Positions 50,465 to 56,908 of a stretch of DNA of 64,000 nucleotides are shown here, piece after piece (the first letter of the stretch is position 1; each line of letters begins with the position of its first letter). The DNA is from Prosthecobacter sp. Its GTDB lineage: Bacteria; Verrucomicrobiota; Verrucomicrobiia; Verrucomicrobiales; Verrucomicrobiaceae. A program made the position numbers and the translations under genes. The stretch is from positions 186,001 to 250,000 of the forward strand of contig NZ_JAXMIH010000010.1 in the NCBI RefSeq assembly GCF_034366625.1. Reading direction: 5' to 3'. Below the pieces are notes generated by a model. It had not been told where the DNA came from. It worked only from the letters and a program-made list of their open reading frames with translations, and ran no database searches.

Positions 50465-51058
50465 ATGACACGCCGCCTCGCCTGCCTCGCCATTGCATTG
50501 CTGCTCAGCACCACCGGATTTTCCCAGTCCGCACCGTCCGAGTTCAAACCGTGGACGCAGCACAGTTTCGATTTTGAAACCGGCATGCTGTGGAAGGTGG
50601 GTGGTGACACCACCTTCAACTACCGCATCGTTCCCTTCATCGTTTCCTGGCGCACACCGGAAATGTTCGGCCTGCATTTCCAAAACGGCTCCGCGCTCAG
50701 CGTGCGCAACAAGTTCAGCCTCATGGCCAACTGGTTCGAAACAGGCTCGGAAAATCGTTACCTCGGCCTTTCCGGCGCACCATCCATCGAATGGTGGGAT
50801 CCCACGGCGACATGGAGCGTCTTTGGCTCCATCGGCGGCGGTGTGGGCTGGGTGGACGCTCAGAACGTGCCCGGCGGCCAGGGCCAGGACTTCACGCTGA
50901 ACTGGTTTGGCCAGCTCGGCGTCTCGCGCACGATCACTCAAGACTGGTCCCTGCGTGCCAGTGCGATGTTCCAGCACCTCTCCAACGGCGGTCAAACCAA
51001 TCCCAACCCCGGCCTCGACTCCCTGGGCATCCTGATCGGCCTCAGCCGGGATTTTTAG
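50465..51058 (+). CDS. PagL-like lipid A 3-O-deacylase
   Basis: A 197-residue outer-membrane beta-barrel protein with a signal peptide (about 20 residues, GFSQ). The C-terminal signature FQHLSNGGQTNPNPGLDSLG contains the His and Ser of the PagL active site (HxSN), followed by a terminal strand ending in Phe, as expected for an outer-membrane barrel. PagL removes an acyl chain from lipid A, altering envelope properties. Monocistronic, divergent from the kinase remnant (gap of six bases between starts). Confidence 0.85.
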   Translation: MTRRLACLAIALLLSTTGFSQSAPSEFKPWTQHSFDFETGMLWKVGGDTTFNYRIVPFIVSWRTPEMFGLHFQNGSALSVRNKFSLMANWFETGSENRYLGLSGAPSIEWWDPTATWSVFGSIGGGVGWVDAQNVPGGQGQDFTLNWFGQLGVSRTITQDWSLRASAMFQHLSNGGQTNPNPGLDSLGILIGLSRDF

Positions 51059-51118
51059 TGGCGGCGAAATGAGGCTCGCATGCGGGTTGGAAGCATTTCA
51101 TGGTGAGATTGCATCATC

Positions 51119-52348
51119 ATGAGCTTCAAATTCCTGCCCGCAGTCGTCCTCTCCATCTCTCTGGCTTCCGCCGCAGACACCTACTTCCCACAACCCGACA
51201 GCGAAGGTGGCTGGCGTGAGGCGAAAACGGCAAAAGAATGCCGTGACCTCGCGGGCATGGATTTGGTGAAGCTGGAACCCGCTTACACGATCACCGAGCG
51301 CTCGACTGGCAACGGCGGCCTGCTCGTGGTTCACAACGGTTATCTCTGCTTCGAGCGCTACTTCGGCCGTGCCAGTCGCAACTGCAATCCCGACATGGCC
51401 TCCACCGGCAAGGCCTTTTGCAGCATCGCCTGCGGCATCATGCTGCATGAGTTCAAAGACAAAATCCCCGCAGGTCTCGACACCAAGGTCTTCACGGAAC
51501 AGTATCTGCCTCAGGCCTTCCCGCTGAACGATCCGCGCAAAGCAAACATCACCCTCGGTCAGCTTCTCTGCATGACCGGAGGTTACTGGGGAGAAGGACA
51601 AACGCCCACCGGCTACGTCAAAGGCGATCCGAAACCGAAAGCACTCAAACCCGTTCCCGGCCAGAACATCCGTGATCTCGACAAATCCTCACTCGATGTG
51701 CCGCTGTGGTGCGATCCGGGCGCCGGTTACTCGTATTCCTCCCCTTCCCCGCACATCGCCAGCATCGTGCTGCGCAACGTGAGCGGCATGGAGTTGAAGA
51801 ACTTCATTCACGAACGCCTCGCCAAGCCACAAGGCTGGGGCGCGTGGGATTACTGCCTGCATCGCGGCGATTTCGTGATGCCGCACGCGAACGGAGCCGG
51901 CAGCACCACTTTGCACGCTACGGACGCCCTGCGCTTCGGCTACTGCCTCGCTCAAAACGGCAAATGGAAGGATCAGCAACTCGTCCCGCTCGATTACATC
52001 CAAAAATGCCAGACCTGGAGTCCCTACAACCCTCACACGCCCTTCAGTCTGCAATGGGAGCACAACGCCGACGGTCATGTGGCCGGAGCGCCGAAGGATG
52101 CCTTCTGGAAAAGCGGTGCCGGTGGCTTCTGCCTCTATGTCGTGCCCTCGCTCGACCTCGTCATCTACAAGCTCGGCGGCAAGGACGGCCAGTATGATCC
52201 CACGCTCACACGCATCCCGCAGCCTGAGCAGAAGCACGATCGCGACAACTGGCAGCCTATTCCCGGCAACGCCTTTCAGGAAGGCAGCGGCGCGGCCTCG
52301 CTCGGACGCGTGCTGGAGATGGTGTGCGCGGCAGTGCGGCTGGAGTAG
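51119..52348 (+). CDS. Secreted serine hydrolase, beta-lactamase/transpeptidase-like
   Basis: A 409-residue protein with a signal peptide (about 18 residues, ASAAD). It belongs to the class C beta-lactamase-like serine hydrolases: the SxxK motif is S-T-G-K in MASTGKAFCSIACG, and a YSYSSPSP segment could supply the second motif (YxS/N). GNGGLLVVHNGYLCFERYFGR precedes the active Ser as usual. Members include esterases and peptidases; real beta-lactam resistance is unlikely. It ends about 20 bases before the first RAYT-associated hairpin. Confidence 0.82.
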   Translation: MSFKFLPAVVLSISLASAADTYFPQPDSEGGWREAKTAKECRDLAGMDLVKLEPAYTITERSTGNGGLLVVHNGYLCFERYFGRASRNCNPDMASTGKAFCSIACGIMLHEFKDKIPAGLDTKVFTEQYLPQAFPLNDPRKANITLGQLLCMTGGYWGEGQTPTGYVKGDPKPKALKPVPGQNIRDLDKSSLDVPLWCDPGAGYSYSSPSPHIASIVLRNVSGMELKNFIHERLAKPQGWGAWDYCLHRGDFVMPHANGAGSTTLHATDALRFGYCLAQNGKWKDQQLVPLDYIQKCQTWSPYNPHTPFSLQWEHNADGHVAGAPKDAFWKSGAGGFCLYVVPSLDLVIYKLGGKDGQYDPTLTRIPQPEQKHDRDNWQPIPGNAFQEGSGAASLGRVLEMVCAAVRLE

Positions 52349-52361
52349 TCCGCAAATTGGC

Positions 52362-52435
52362 GTGCTCCTCACACTCCGTGTGCGGTGTCAGGATTGACAT
52401 TGAAGCCCAGACCGCACATGGAATGTGCGGACCAC
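52362..52435. repeat. Left REP pair flanking the RAYT gene
   Basis: Two hairpins: CACAC-TCC-GTGTG (52370-52382) and CCGCACAT-GGA-ATGTGCGG (52412-52430), with conserved flanks GTGCTCC and ACCAC. The same two hairpins occur as an inverted copy at 53117-53191, so the transposase gene lies between a pair of mirror-image REP doublets. Confidence 0.85.
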
Positions 52436-52453
52436 ATCGCTTCCCGGCCTGCC

Positions 52454-53089
52454 ATGCCTTTCCAGTTCTTCAATCCTCAAGCGGGTGTGACGATCACGCA
52501 TGGCCACCTGCCACACTGGGATCAGGAAGGCGCGACTTACTTCATCACCTGGCGCACAGCAGATTCGATCCCAAAGCCCGTTTGGGAGCAATGGCGGCTG
52601 GCTCGTGATGACTGGCTGCTTGCTCATGGCATTGATCCGGCTCAACGCGACTGGCGCAGACTGCTCGAAAATATGTCAGAAGCTGAAAGACGAGATTTTC
52701 GCCAGTTCACCATGCGTCTCGAGCATGAAATGGACTCCTGTCACGGTGCCTGTGTTCTCCGCCAACCGGCACTCCGTCAGATCGTCGTCGATGCGCTGCA
52801 TTTCTTCGACGCACAGCGCTACACCTTGGGTGATTTCGTGGTGATGCCCAATCATGTGCATGTCCTCGTCGGCAGCATGCCCCGTGAAGCCATGCTGGCA
52901 CAGGTGGAGTCCTGGAAACGCTGGACCGCCAAACAAATCAACAAGGTGATTGGGCAGCACGGAAGGTTTTGGCAGGACGAGAGCTTCGACCATCTGGTGC
53001 GCAGTGAAGATGCCTTCCAGAAATTTCGTCGCTACATCGCCGAGAATCCGGTGAAAGCCCGCCTGAAGGACACCGAGTTCACGCATTGA
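52454..53089 (+). CDS. REP-associated tyrosine transposase (RAYT, Y1 family)
   Basis: A 211-residue Y1-type transposase starting at 52454; the upstream open frame is REP sequence and is not counted. The domain has EGATYFITWRTAD, the HUH metal site MPNHVHVLVG and the catalytic Tyr in KFRRYIAENPVKA. WQDESFDHLVRSEDAF is typical of RAYTs. RAYTs cleave and move single-stranded REP hairpins, and the gene is flanked by inverted REP doublets as expected. It is intact; whether still active is unknown. Confidence 0.93.
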   Translation: MPFQFFNPQAGVTITHGHLPHWDQEGATYFITWRTADSIPKPVWEQWRLARDDWLLAHGIDPAQRDWRRLLENMSEAERRDFRQFTMRLEHEMDSCHGACVLRQPALRQIVVDALHFFDAQRYTLGDFVVMPNHVHVLVGSMPREAMLAQVESWKRWTAKQINKVIGQHGRFWQDESFDHLVRSEDAFQKFRRYIAENPVKARLKDTEFTH

Positions 53090-53116
53090 AAACAGACGGC
53101 GTGAGAACCAGCGTGA

Positions 53117-53191
53117 AGTGGTCCGCACATTCCATGTGCGGCACGAGCGTCCCTAGGCAACCGAACCCCGCACACGGAGTGTGAGGAGCAC
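53117..53191. repeat. Right REP pair flanking the RAYT gene
   Basis: Inverted copy of the left pair: CCGCACAT-TCC-ATGTGCGG (53123-53141) and CACAC-GGA-GTGTG (53171-53183) followed by AGGAGCAC. Both hairpin sequences are identical to the left copies read on the other strand. Confidence 0.85.
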
Positions 53192-53209
53192 ATCGCTGCG
53201 AGGCCTTCG

Positions 53210-54037
53210 TCACCGCAAACTTGTCACACCCCCCTCCATTTTGAACAGCCGCTCCACCTCCGCGTCGGTCAAGGCACGGTCAAACACCGCCAGATCGTCC
53301 TGATGACCGACATAGGATGCGCCGAGCACCAGCGCCACACTTGCGGGATCCCAACCGAAGCTCAGATCCCAGTTCTCGATGCGCCCTTGGAGCTTGCCGT
53401 TGAGGAAAAGACTGCCACTCGACTTCCCGGCCTTGTTGTTCACGTTGGAAAGCGTGAAAACCACATGCGTCCACGTGTCGCGGGTGAACGGCGGCTTCGC
53501 CACCTGCACCATCGGCCGTTTCTCGAAGGGAATGTCCGCCCATTGCACATTCGTCGGGTTCCAGATGTGAAATAACGGACGCACAGCATAGCGGAAGAAG
53601 CGCGGCGTCTCATCCTTCGAGAACTCCAGGAAGATGTAGCCCTTCTTCACATCATCGCCCGTGATCTGCACGGGATCGCAGTAGCCCGGCTCCAGATCCT
53701 CATCCGGTGTCAGCCGCAGCCACACCGACACCGTGGCACTCCACGACTTGTCATTGTAGCCCAGCACGTTCATCCCGTTGAACTGCGGCCGCGTGACTCC
53801 CTTCTTTGGGAAATGCACGCAGCCACCGAATTTCCCGCCCGCAGCGAGTTTCACATCGTCATTCGGCACACAGGGCACGAAGTCCTTGCCCTTCTTGATC
53901 ACGCAATCCTTGCTGCCCTTGCTGAAATCAGCGTTCAAGCTCGAATCAAAGGATGCATGGAAGACGAGTGACGACTTGAGCGAGTCTTGGGCGAGCAACG
54001 GCGAGGCAAGGCAGAGAAAGATGACGAGTGGTTTCAT
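53210..54037 (-). CDS. Secreted LamG domain protein
   Basis: A 275-residue protein with a signal peptide (about 16 residues, LLAQ) and a single LamG/concanavalin-A-like domain: SLVFHASFDSSLNADF, SWSATVSVWLRLTPDEDL, TWTHVVFTLSNVN, GSLFLNGKLQGRIENW and the terminal DDLAVFDRALTDAEVERLF, shared almost word for word with the LamG end of the ceramidase-like protein at 13250. Probably extracellular carbohydrate binding; no catalytic motif. Confidence 0.85.
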   Translation of the reverse strand: MKPLVIFLCLASPLLAQDSLKSSLVFHASFDSSLNADFSKGSKDCVIKKGKDFVPCVPNDDVKLAAGGKFGGCVHFPKKGVTRPQFNGMNVLGYNDKSWSATVSVWLRLTPDEDLEPGYCDPVQITGDDVKKGYIFLEFSKDETPRFFRYAVRPLFHIWNPTNVQWADIPFEKRPMVQVAKPPFTRDTWTHVVFTLSNVNNKAGKSSGSLFLNGKLQGRIENWDLSFGWDPASVALVLGASYVGHQDDLAVFDRALTDAEVERLFKMEGGVTSLR

Positions 54038-54142
54038 GGCTGGTTTGCCATGAACGCTAGCCAGCCATGAACCTTTGCGGCGGCGGGTCGTTTTGCCTTG
54101 GTGATTGACAGATCGTGCCCGCCTCGCCTGTTCTGTCCGACC

Positions 54143-56908
54143 ATGAAATTCCGCACGTGCCTCGCGTCACTCGCCCTCGCCACCACGCTCATCGCGCAAA
54201 AGCCCGACGCCCCCGCCACGCCCTCGCCGTGGGGCGATTTCGTGGAGAAGGATTTTCCGTTCTTCAGCAGCGTGCTGGACTGTCGCGACCTCGGCGAAGG
54301 CTTTCCGAAGGACAATCTGACGCCCCGCGGCCTCATCCTGAACCTCGGCCACAACCTCTGGGCCTGCTTCGACACCGACCTCCTCCGCATCGCCTGCATC
54401 TGGGAAGGCGAGGAGGGCAAACCACCCGTCACTCCCGAAGCGCTCGCACCCGGCTCCTATCACATCGCCGGACAGAAGACCAAGGATGGCCAGGAGTATC
54501 TGCCGAAGCCGGTGGGCAAGGTGTGGCTGGCGAATGGCATCTATCCCGGCTGGCAGGTCGGTGAGAAACCGAGCTTCGCTGATCCGCGTGAGCCGACAGC
54601 GAGCAAGGAGGAAGTGGGGAGAGGACCAATCCCTGCGCAGATCGGAGTTTTTCAATCCATTGAGGTCACGTATGACGGAAACGTCGTTTTCATCAATTCA
54701 TTGGTTGGTGGAACAGTCATTCAGGAATGGATATGGATAGAGCCACCCTTTCGAGACAAGACTCATGTCTTGATGCGCGGTTTTTCAGTCCACGAGCATT
54801 CGAAGCCAATTAGTTTCGCAGTTTGTTCATCAAACAAGCCGCTTACCAAAGTGGTAGGAGAGAACTACGCAATCATCTCCGGTGGGAACAGCCCGTTGGA
54901 GTCGATTGAAATCCGCCCCAAGCCAGGCTTGGAAACGAAGATCGATGCCGACATCATTGATCAAAAGGGACTGAATGTAGCCTGCGTCACACTCCCGCCC
55001 ACGAAAGACCGGCAGATCTTTTATGTGGCATCTGCGTTGAACTTGCCGCTTCAAGCATCGGTTGATTCAAAAGTCCGCACGGCTTCTCAAAAACCGTCTG
55101 AACCGATCATCTCTTGGCCCCAGACTCTCACCACCAAAGCCACGCTCTCCCCCAAACCCGACGCCTACGTCATCGACGACATTCCCCTGCCCTTCGCGAA
55201 TCCGTGGAAGCGCAATGTACGGCTGGCGGACATCGCGTTTCTCAATGACCAGGGGGATGCGGCGGGCGTGACCTTCGATGGTGATGTGTGGCTGATCTCG
55301 GGCTTGAAGGGCGATTTGGAGAAGGTGACATGGAAGCGCTACGCCAGCGGGCTGCATGAGCCGATGAGCATCGTGGTCAGAAAAGCAGAAAGCGAAAAGC
55401 AGAAAGCAGAAATCCTGGTGTTTGATCGCAACGGCATCTGGAAGCTGGTGGACACGAACAACGACGGCGAATGCGACCGCTATGAGATGTTCTGCAACCT
55501 CTTCGCGCAGACGGCGGAGACGCGGGAGTTTCCGAACTCGATGAAGCTGGGGCCGAAGGGCGAGCTGTACATCTCCAAAGGCGGCCAGGAGGGCACGACG
55601 CGTGGCAAGCACAACGGCACCGTGATCAAGGTGGCGGCGAATGGGAAGAAAATTGACGTGATCGGTTATGGCCTACGCCAGCCGTTCATCGGCGTGCATC
55701 CGCTGACGGGGCTGGTCACGGCGAGTGATCAGCAGGGCAACTACGTGCCGTCCACGCCGCTGCACATCATCTCGGATCATCACTTCTACGGCCATCTGCC
55801 GACGATTGCGCCAAAGGAGCGGTATCCCGAGACGATCACCGAGCCGCTGACGTGGCTGCCGCATCCGGTGAACCCAAGTGGTGTGACACAGACTTGGCTC
55901 GTGGGCGCGAAGATGGGTCCGGTGAATGATGAACTCATCCATATCGGCTACAACCGGCCGGAACTTTTCCGCGTGCTGATGAACTCGCGCTTTGCGAGAC
56001 CGCAGGCGGCGGTGGTGAGCTTTTCCCGCGACTTCGACTTCCCCACGCTCAACGCGACCGTGAATCCGGCGGACGGACAGCTTTACGTCACCGGTTTCCA
56101 AGTTTGGGGCACAGTGGTGAAGAAGTTGAGCGGTCTGGTGCGCGTGCGCTACACGGACAAACCGCGAGTACTGCTCAAAGAAGTGACGCCAACAGACAAG
56201 GGCCTGCTTCTGCGCTTCAACGCGAAGCTCGATGCCAAACTGGCCACTGATCCGAGCAGCTACAGCGCCGAGCGCTGGAACTACAAGCGCACCTTCGACT
56301 ACGGCTCGCCGCATTTGAAGCTGGACGGCAGCACCGGCCAGGAATTCATGACCGCCAGCAGCGCCTACCTCAGCAAGGACGGCTTGAGTGTGTTGGTAGG
56401 TTTTCCCGACATGAAAACCTGCCATCAGATGCGCATCGGCTGGGGACTCAAAAGCGCGGACGGCCTGCCCGCGCAAAACACCGCCTACTTCACGCCGTGG
56501 GAACTCATGACATTTGATCCGGCCAAAGAGGGCTTTGAAGCAGGCTTGAAGGTCGATCTCACACCGCGCCAGGCGCTGGCGACCACGCAAACGAAGCCGA
56601 CGGCGGCGGAAGGCGAGCGCCTGTATCAAATGTTTGGCTGCATGGCCTGCCATAGCACAGACGGCACCCTCGTCGGCAAAGTGGGACCGAGTTGGAAAGG
56701 CTTGTTCGGTGCCGAGCGCGACATCGCCAAGGGCATGAAAGGCAAGCTGAAAGCCGATGAAGCCTACTTGCGCGAGTCCATCACGAATCCGAGCGCCAAG
56801 GTCGTGAAGGGCTTCGAGAAATTCGATACTGGCATGCCGATCTACGCGGGCATCTTGAACGACTCACAGATCGAGAGCCTGATTCTGTATATCAAGAGTT
56901 TGAAATAG
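54143..56908 (+). CDS. DUF6797-type secreted protein with C-terminal cytochrome c
   Basis: A 921-residue secreted protein starting at 54143, with signal peptide (about 19 residues). The N-terminal part (SPWGDFVEKDFPFFSSVLDC) looks like DUF6797, followed by a beta-propeller PVC-type region (DIAFLNDQGDAAGVTFDGDVW, VDTNNDGECDRYEM, GLRQPFIGVHPLTG) and a final haem-binding C-M-A-C-H with VGPSWKGLF. Likely a periplasmic redox protein. Two oddities: a low-GC segment (about 54630-55110) within the gene, and a repeat-derived peptide (RKAESEKQKAE) encoded at 55379-55412. Confidence 0.85.
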   Translation: MKFRTCLASLALATTLIAQKPDAPATPSPWGDFVEKDFPFFSSVLDCRDLGEGFPKDNLTPRGLILNLGHNLWACFDTDLLRIACIWEGEEGKPPVTPEALAPGSYHIAGQKTKDGQEYLPKPVGKVWLANGIYPGWQVGEKPSFADPREPTASKEEVGRGPIPAQIGVFQSIEVTYDGNVVFINSLVGGTVIQEWIWIEPPFRDKTHVLMRGFSVHEHSKPISFAVCSSNKPLTKVVGENYAIISGGNSPLESIEIRPKPGLETKIDADIIDQKGLNVACVTLPPTKDRQIFYVASALNLPLQASVDSKVRTASQKPSEPIISWPQTLTTKATLSPKPDAYVIDDIPLPFANPWKRNVRLADIAFLNDQGDAAGVTFDGDVWLISGLKGDLEKVTWKRYASGLHEPMSIVVRKAESEKQKAEILVFDRNGIWKLVDTNNDGECDRYEMFCNLFAQTAETREFPNSMKLGPKGELYISKGGQEGTTRGKHNGTVIKVAANGKKIDVIGYGLRQPFIGVHPLTGLVTASDQQGNYVPSTPLHIISDHHFYGHLPTIAPKERYPETITEPLTWLPHPVNPSGVTQTWLVGAKMGPVNDELIHIGYNRPELFRVLMNSRFARPQAAVVSFSRDFDFPTLNATVNPADGQLYVTGFQVWGTVVKKLSGLVRVRYTDKPRVLLKEVTPTDKGLLLRFNAKLDAKLATDPSSYSAERWNYKRTFDYGSPHLKLDGSTGQEFMTASSAYLSKDGLSVLVGFPDMKTCHQMRIGWGLKSADGLPAQNTAYFTPWELMTFDPAKEGFEAGLKVDLTPRQALATTQTKPTAAEGERLYQMFGCMACHSTDGTLVGKVGPSWKGLFGAERDIAKGMKGKLKADEAYLRESITNPSAKVVKGFEKFDTGMPIYAGILNDSQIESLILYIKSLK
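55379..55412 (+). repeat. In-frame AGCAGAAA-type repeat inside coding sequence
   Basis: Near-direct repeats of GCAGAAA and GCGAAAA within the DUF6797/cytochrome gene encode a Lys/Glu-rich stretch. The unit resembles those of the intergenic composite palindromes, especially the AGCTGAAA element at 365-426. Confidence 0.6.

Follow-up and report, generated by a model that had tools for sequence, protein, structure and literature searches.

An intact RAYT between mirrored REPINs in Prosthecobacter, and REPIN-only alleles at RAYT sites in the genus

What kind of element is a RAYT gene bordered on both sides by the same repeats in mirror-image order, and what becomes of such a gene at its site? These questions are raised by a locus in a stretch of 64,000 nucleotides (the window), which is C10:186001-250000 of the genome of a Prosthecobacter sp. 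(G000; 6,645,079 bases in 30 contigs). The first-pass annotation of the window had described an intact RAYT between inverted hairpin doublets. This description is confirmed, positions 52362 and 53191 being the outer ends of the doublets. The element is very probably a REPtron, i.e. a single-copy RAYT between two REPINs of its likely REP, from which recombination may delete the RAYT, leaving a REPIN. Its features, in window coordinates, are as follows.

52362..52385, plus strand: REPb, left outer (GTGCTCCTCACACTCCGTGTGCGG; tag GTGC; one stem mismatch)
52386..52411, no strand: left REPIN spacer, 26 nt, from the sequence
52412..52435, minus strand: REPa, left inner (GTGGTCCGCACATTCCATGTGCGG; minus-strand tag GTGG; 8-bp stem, 3-nt loop)
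52412..52450, plus strand: 39-nt direct repeat D1, left copy (82%), REP plus outer flank
52457..53089, plus strand: RAYT (TnpAREP-like HUH/Y1 enzyme), 210 aa, ATG start (Pfam, NCBIfam, alignment, AlphaFold2)
53118..53141, plus strand: REPa, right inner, same 24 nt as left REPa
53142..53167, no strand: right REPIN spacer, 26 nt, like the left spacer at 11 of 26 positions
53168..53191, minus strand: REPb, right outer, same 24 nt as left REPb
53168..53206, plus strand: 39-nt direct repeat D1, right copy, pairing with 52412..52450

The same hairpins do lie on both flanks in inverted order, the copies of REPa and of REPb each being identical over 24 nt. Doublets are present on both sides as described, but what had been counted as two hairpins are, when written from the tag, variants of one REP (REPa, GTGGTCCGCACATTCCATGTGCGG, and REPb, GTGCTCCTCACACTCCGTGTGCGG), and each doublet is a REPIN: two inverted REPs, tags outward, on either side of a 26-nt spacer. 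The REPINs stand in mirror-image order, with REPb outer and REPa inner, and the 77-nt arms of the locus are 79% complementary. The GT[AG]G tag borders the RAYT on both sides in the inner REPa (GTGG), and the outer REPb tags are GTGC. The usual GTGGTCCGC start is altered in two respects in REPb, identically in both copies, so one flank may be a copy of the other, or the flanks may convert each other. Folded as single-stranded DNA, the left and right doublets have z-scores of -3.8 and -2.9 and REPa alone -6.4, and REPb alone folds weakly (-1.6) because of its stem mismatch. Given the changed tag and the mismatched stem in both REPb copies, the outer ends may be inactive. Rfam searching of window positions 51000-54500 gives no family at cut-off, only a microRNA family far below it, on both strands. 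A 10-nt tail, TTCACGCTGG, adjoins REPa at 53108-53117, downstream of the RAYT, and is inverted relative to G002 (L107), where it lies upstream; the inversion of the RAYT between the two genomes that this tail suggested is rejected, as RAYT orientation is equal in both.

The RAYT reading frame is uninterrupted from ATG to stop, with the catalytic residues present; a longer frame from the GTG at 52385 would cross the left inner REP and is unsupported by homologue starts. The protein has an HUH motif, with His133 and His135 in NHVH (132-135), followed by W172-Q173, D178-H179 and R182, and a single tyrosine in the YxxxNP context, Tyr193 in YIAENP (N197-P198), which is the presumed catalytic tyrosine. 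H133, H135, W172, D178, R182, Y193 and N197 are invariant in a 55-sequence alignment. The available text of PMC6006769 attributes tag recognition to W94, Q95, E or D100, H101 and R104, and gives the tyrosine context as Y---NP for class 2 and YxxxQ for class 1; W172, Q173, D178, H179 and R182 of the window protein appear to line up with these tag-recognition residues, the one-to-one mapping being our own reading.

Profile models and predicted fold agree with this picture. Pfam Y1_Tnp scores 28.3 bits (cut-off 23, E 2.1e-6), and NCBIfam REP_Tyr_transpos (NF047646) 70.8 bits (E 1.1e-19), short of its cut-off of 80, which is a naming threshold and no biological feature; the protein is counted as a RAYT on the other criteria. 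The IS200 model reaches 24 bits, its cut-off being 55. The AlphaFold2 model (mean pLDDT 87) has as its best PDB match in Foldseek 4er8, E. coli TnpAREP with a bound REP hairpin (E 2.7e-5, TM 0.43 by query length; next match 2.8e-4), and 4er8 is also first in a profile search (E 1.3e-6; next 3.8e-4). By both searches, sequence and fold are nearer to TnpAREP than to IS200 transposases. Single-sequence phmmer searching gives nothing significant, ISDra2 chains being top at E 0.24. Some 60-70 residues ahead of the HUH core (about 36-100), mainly helical, are without counterpart in the aligned part of 4er8. Evidence from family, fold, motifs and repeats thus supports the annotation's central claim, that the RAYT is flanked by its own REPs.

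The RAYT is single-copy in its genome, which holds no near-identical copies; the nearest paralogue is 67-71% identical. One paralogue (L163 3351-3935, on G000:C11) has 194 aa, against 218-219 aa in its orthologues of G001, G012 and G026; it is without about 24 in-frame residues before the HUH core, and so is possibly inactive. The REPIN on its left reaches into the 3′ end of the BatA gene upstream, the last codons of which are REP sequence. Two distant RAYT-like genes (L044 and L045; G000:C6:868237 and C8:376745) have their own, different repeats on both sides, with tags GTAG and GTAC by eye.

The REPs of the locus are dispersed in the genome. The REPa palindrome has three exact occurrences, two at the window locus; CCGCACATGGAATGTGCGG is present exactly once outside the locus, at C8:615119, and CACACTCCGTGTG is found inside REPs at C8:349973, C8:615086 and C23:547521. 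The exact sequences had been offered as probes for dispersed copies: such copies exist, but the probes are poor, as most copies belong to a sister subtype, the one that flanks the C11 paralogue. Searching with the first hairpin, exactly or with up to two mismatches, adds one further exact place, and relaxed patterns were therefore used. Allowing up to three mismatches gives 35 matches versus 7 in the control, and was discarded, the three-mismatch matches looking like noise. The pattern GTGNTCCNCACAN{2,9}TGTGCGG has 24 matches in G000 and none in the reversed control, and a looser pattern 30 versus 9 in the control, six of the 30 not being hairpins of the window REP family (by eye). We take as related REPs the 24 strict matches plus two from the looser pattern, which have a compensatory stem change (GCTCAG/CTGAGC), the six non-family matches being dropped. 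The window subtype accounts for four strict copies at three places outside the locus, and the REPb form seen here (tag GTGC, stem mismatch) occurs among the 24 strict matches at the window locus only.

The annotation had further proposed a test for doublets in intergenic regions. Pairing is the rule, with 22 of the 26 REPs in tag-outward inverted pairs (13 REPINs, with start-to-start offsets of 33-51 or 96-117 nt) and 4 single; four of the REPIN partners are degenerate copies found by the relaxed scan only. The intergenic position holds less generally: by the calls of a simple codon-usage gene caller trained on the window, four of the 17 REP sites lie inside long ORFs and two overlap the end or start of a called gene (C11 left, C23), while the other 11, by our own reading, are intergenic or reach no more than an alternative start. 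Two REPINs inside long frames (L047 and L068; G000:C4:2276-2351 and C29:16022-16142) leave the frames unbroken, and each has one partner REP with a compensatory A-T to T-A stem change (GCTCAG/CTGAGC). Stem covariation was scored on a subset of copies, 20 hand-picked REP variants of which 18 are distinct. The score is 0.239 versus 0.045 and exceeds all of 500 shuffles; 97.2% of stem cells are paired (0/500 shuffles as high), and 11 cells are changed on both sides, against 3.1 +/- 1.2 in shuffles (0/500) and 0 or 1 in slid controls. Of five such measures, two are weaker, the pairs changed on both sides (3; 56/500 shuffles) and further pair types (5; 8/500).

RAYTs are widespread among the related genomes, with matches at E <= 1e-20 in 44 of 56. 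The set compared here comprises 41 matches in 40 loci plus the window, chosen from the top matches and the other G000 copies rather than as every RAYT; L172 and L173 (over-long frames) are left out of flanks and tree, L157 (short right flank) out of the orientation count and L169 out of the tree. In the tree of 38 RAYTs the window copy is grouped with G002:C84 (94/92, not starred; 74% identity). An eight-row clade holding the BatA-locus copies adjoins this pair, and another clade, of 13, includes eight aspS-locus copies. RAYT clades carry their own REP types, as read by eye. REPs matching GTGGTCCGCACAN{2,9}TGTGCGG are found in 24 of the 56 genomes, the control giving none in all 56. Window-family REPs are commoner in genomes with a RAYT of the same clade (the ten-row clade, taken as a RAYT match of about 60% identity or more), with a median of 17 versus 2 (7 versus 28 genus genomes; Mann-Whitney p 0.007). 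Exceptions to this trend are G022, with 44 REPs and no such RAYT, and G033, with such a RAYT and no REPs.

Repeats on the two flanks exceed 40 shuffles at 37 of the 38 RAYT loci for which both flanks are available. Counting as direct those with a direct alignment at least 10 above the inverted one, the 38 genus loci divide into 25 direct, 5 inverted (the window included) and 8 neither. A wider set, mainly from Planctomycetes and Verrucomicrobia (80 loci, of which 18 are without a usable flank pair, leaving 62), has repeats above shuffles at 54 of 62 loci, with 35 direct and 8 inverted; the two sets overlap in at least four loci (G002:C84, G026:C38, G053:C91 and G024:C15). Since REPINs are palindromic, flank orientation rests mainly on spacers and outer flanks. 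Flanking REPINs in the genus are more often direct than mirrored, and the window belongs to the mirrored minority. Many of the compared genomes are fragmented, several being MAGs, and assembly may have collapsed short direct repeats in them.

By analogy with TnpAREP, as described in the available text of PMC8266576 and PMC6006769, the enzyme would bind the REP hairpin as single-stranded DNA, guided by the tag, cut via Tyr193 and rejoin the strands, with low-rate copying of REPINs to new sites. As REPINs give same-orientation REP copies on either side of the RAYT, recombination, by RecA or by the RAYT itself, could delete the gene and leave one REPIN. This would apply to mirrored flanks as well: they contain the direct repeat D1, so that deletion between same-orientation REPs would also leave a REPIN. 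Alleles at three loci, surveyed in the related genomes, bear on this proposal. Sulfatases have many paralogues, and the sulfatase-neighbour locus (L161) was left out for this reason.

The clearest case is the aspS locus, which is matched in 46 of 48 genomes, with the stretch after aspS viewed in all 46 (partly for G006, G018, G019 and G056). Ten genomes carry a RAYT there (G001, G002, G010, G012, G014, G015, G022, G030, G058 and G066). Nine RAYT-less loci keep the sigma-factor neighbour; by eye, these have an intact REPIN (G020), a single REP (G067), an apparent decayed REPIN (G027, G011 and G029), an unrelated repeat (G000 and G004) or nothing (G016 and G032). G001 and G020 differ by exactly 720 bp, which is the RAYT plus one REPIN copy: G001 has two direct 63-nt REPIN copies (61/63 identical) around the RAYT and G020 has one, with two mismatches in the other 320 aligned bases. 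G020 has just two RAYT matches at E <= 1e-20, both at other sites, with 46% and 38% identity to the window protein.

Three further observations concern this locus. The decayed REPINs (L227, L229 and L230, at the aspS 3′ end of G027, G029 and G011) appear by eye as a hairpin then a T run directly after aspS, as if co-opted as a transcription terminator. In G031 a bare REPIN follows aspS (L233), and an aspS-clade RAYT stands beside the sigma-factor gene on another contig (L148), as might result from a break of the locus at the REPIN. G012 has, in addition to its aspS copy, a second aspS-clade RAYT (L152, on G012:C7), the flanks of which match no other RAYT locus compared, a possible case of RAYT movement or transfer.

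At the window's own locus, next to a beta-lactamase gene (Pfam Beta-lactamase), 29 of 56 genomes are matched, with 1500 nt downstream viewed (less in G006, G022 and G025). G000 and G002 have a RAYT, G012 and G030 have no RAYT but a REPIN of similar composition, G011 has one REP and G009 a single weak match (5 mismatches); the other 23 genomes have no window-family REP there, some having other repeats by eye. G002 carries its RAYT on the other side of a comparable REPIN, in the same RAYT orientation as the window. G016 shares the Laminin-G neighbour and has a beta-lactamase 90% identical to the window's; at its site there is an unrelated repeat and no RAYT. No close relative shows the deletion product at this locus, and the REPIN-only relatives are more distant; from the other alleles we infer that RAYT loss by recombination between REPIN copies could occur here. 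A third RAYT at the beta-lactamase locus is found in a MAG (L255, JANYCZ010000045.1), with direct REPIN copies: upstream of the RAYT come a REPIN and some 50 nt that resemble the beginning of the next gene, and downstream a second REPIN copy, direct, in which the contig ends.

The BatA/DUF4175 locus is matched in 39 of 56 genomes, with 30 loci, or 27 with the partial G031, G016 and G034 left out. A RAYT is present in G000, G001, G012 and G026; the 23 RAYT-less genomes have no window-family REP in the 800 nt before the DUF4175 match (the stretch is unclear in G030 and G008), and G018 has one REP-like hairpin of another type, by eye. With alleles resembling scars at the aspS and beta-lactamase loci and none at BatA/DUF4175, two of the three loci fit the REPIN-scar pattern.

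The same alleles may be read in the opposite direction, the RAYT-less REPIN being ancestral and the RAYT inserted later at an existing REPIN, perhaps as a circle of RAYT plus REPIN. This is consistent with the window locus, where among 29 genomes RAYT-less REPINs or REPs (G012, G030, G011) are as widespread as the RAYT (G000, G002), with the layout of L255, and with the existence of a RAYT copy off the aspS locus (G012:C7). However, all eight of the ten aspS-locus RAYTs that are in the tree fall in one starred clade (99/99), so that presence there looks ancestral and G020 a loss, and decayed-looking REPINs in three of the nine RAYT-less genomes that keep the neighbour are as expected after loss. 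We therefore regard insertion at pre-existing REPINs as unlikely, and deletion of the RAYT as the preferred reading. More speculatively, RAYT genes could be mobile in both directions, a circle of RAYT plus one REPIN leaving or entering at a REPIN, with the direct flanks of most loci as the signature of the exchange; we consider this rather improbable. If it were true, a bare REPIN would be the scar left by a lost RAYT and, equally, a site at which a new one could dock.

An IS200/IS605-type insertion sequence, moving its own transposase gene with the flanking hairpins as its left and right ends, would share the HUH/Y1 superfamily and a gene bordered by hairpins, and the second aspS-clade RAYT of G012, with flanks unlike the other RAYT loci compared, would suit it. 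Such an element is expected in several copies, however, whereas the window RAYT has no near-identical second copy in its genome; the IS200 model falls far below its cut-off, REP copies outnumber the gene and lie mostly away from it, and the tyrosine context is YxxxNP rather than the YxxxQ given for class 1 in the available text of PMC6006769. An insertion sequence of this type is thus very improbable. That the repeats on the flanks could be transcription terminators or RNA hairpins, bordering the gene by chance and unrelated to the RAYT, is hardly credible: the doublets fold strongly and the decayed aspS REPINs of G027, G011 and G029 look by eye like a hairpin with a T run, but each RAYT clade has, by eye, repeat types of its own, 37 of 38 RAYTs have flank repeats scoring above shuffles, and no Rfam family reaches cut-off in window positions 51000-54500.

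The window element is therefore an ordinary REPtron, a known kind. In common with the RAYT/TnpAREP REPtrons of E. coli (4er8) and the RAYTs of Stenotrophomonas and Pseudomonas, it has HUH and YxxxNP motifs in a single-copy gene, and likewise GT[AG]G-tagged REPs on both flanks, dispersed REPINs and REP types that follow RAYT clades; the W-Q...D-H..R stretch of its RAYT resembles the tag-recognition region of TnpAREP. It differs in its tag (GTGG, versus GTAG for E. coli TnpAREP) and in the extra helical region of about 60-70 aa before the HUH core, and the genus differs in that flanking REPINs are more often direct copies. Among the TnpAY1 subclasses in the available text of PMC6006769, subclass 2.7 is alike in NHVH, WQ, an Asp replacing Glu100 and long canonical GT[AG]G REPs; its listed length of 213 aa is close to the 210 aa of the window RAYT. 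It differs in its tyrosine motif, YI[LR][NQ]NP where the window RAYT has YIAENP, the comparison resting on these listed features.

As far as their available text goes, PMC8266576 states that evidence of tnpAREP mobility is lacking, PMC3733652 cites REPtron deletion in E. coli, and RAYT loss is in print in PMC3686654. In the accessible text of the literature searched, which leaves out many subscription papers, we found RAYT-less REPIN alleles at syntenic sites nowhere described. Within this genus, three allele states are found at single sites, namely empty, REPIN only and REPIN-RAYT-REPIN, with one clean 720-bp pair. Such a natural allele series with known breakpoints makes the loss or gain of RAYTs, and the remnants that they leave, testable, and may be of interest to specialists.
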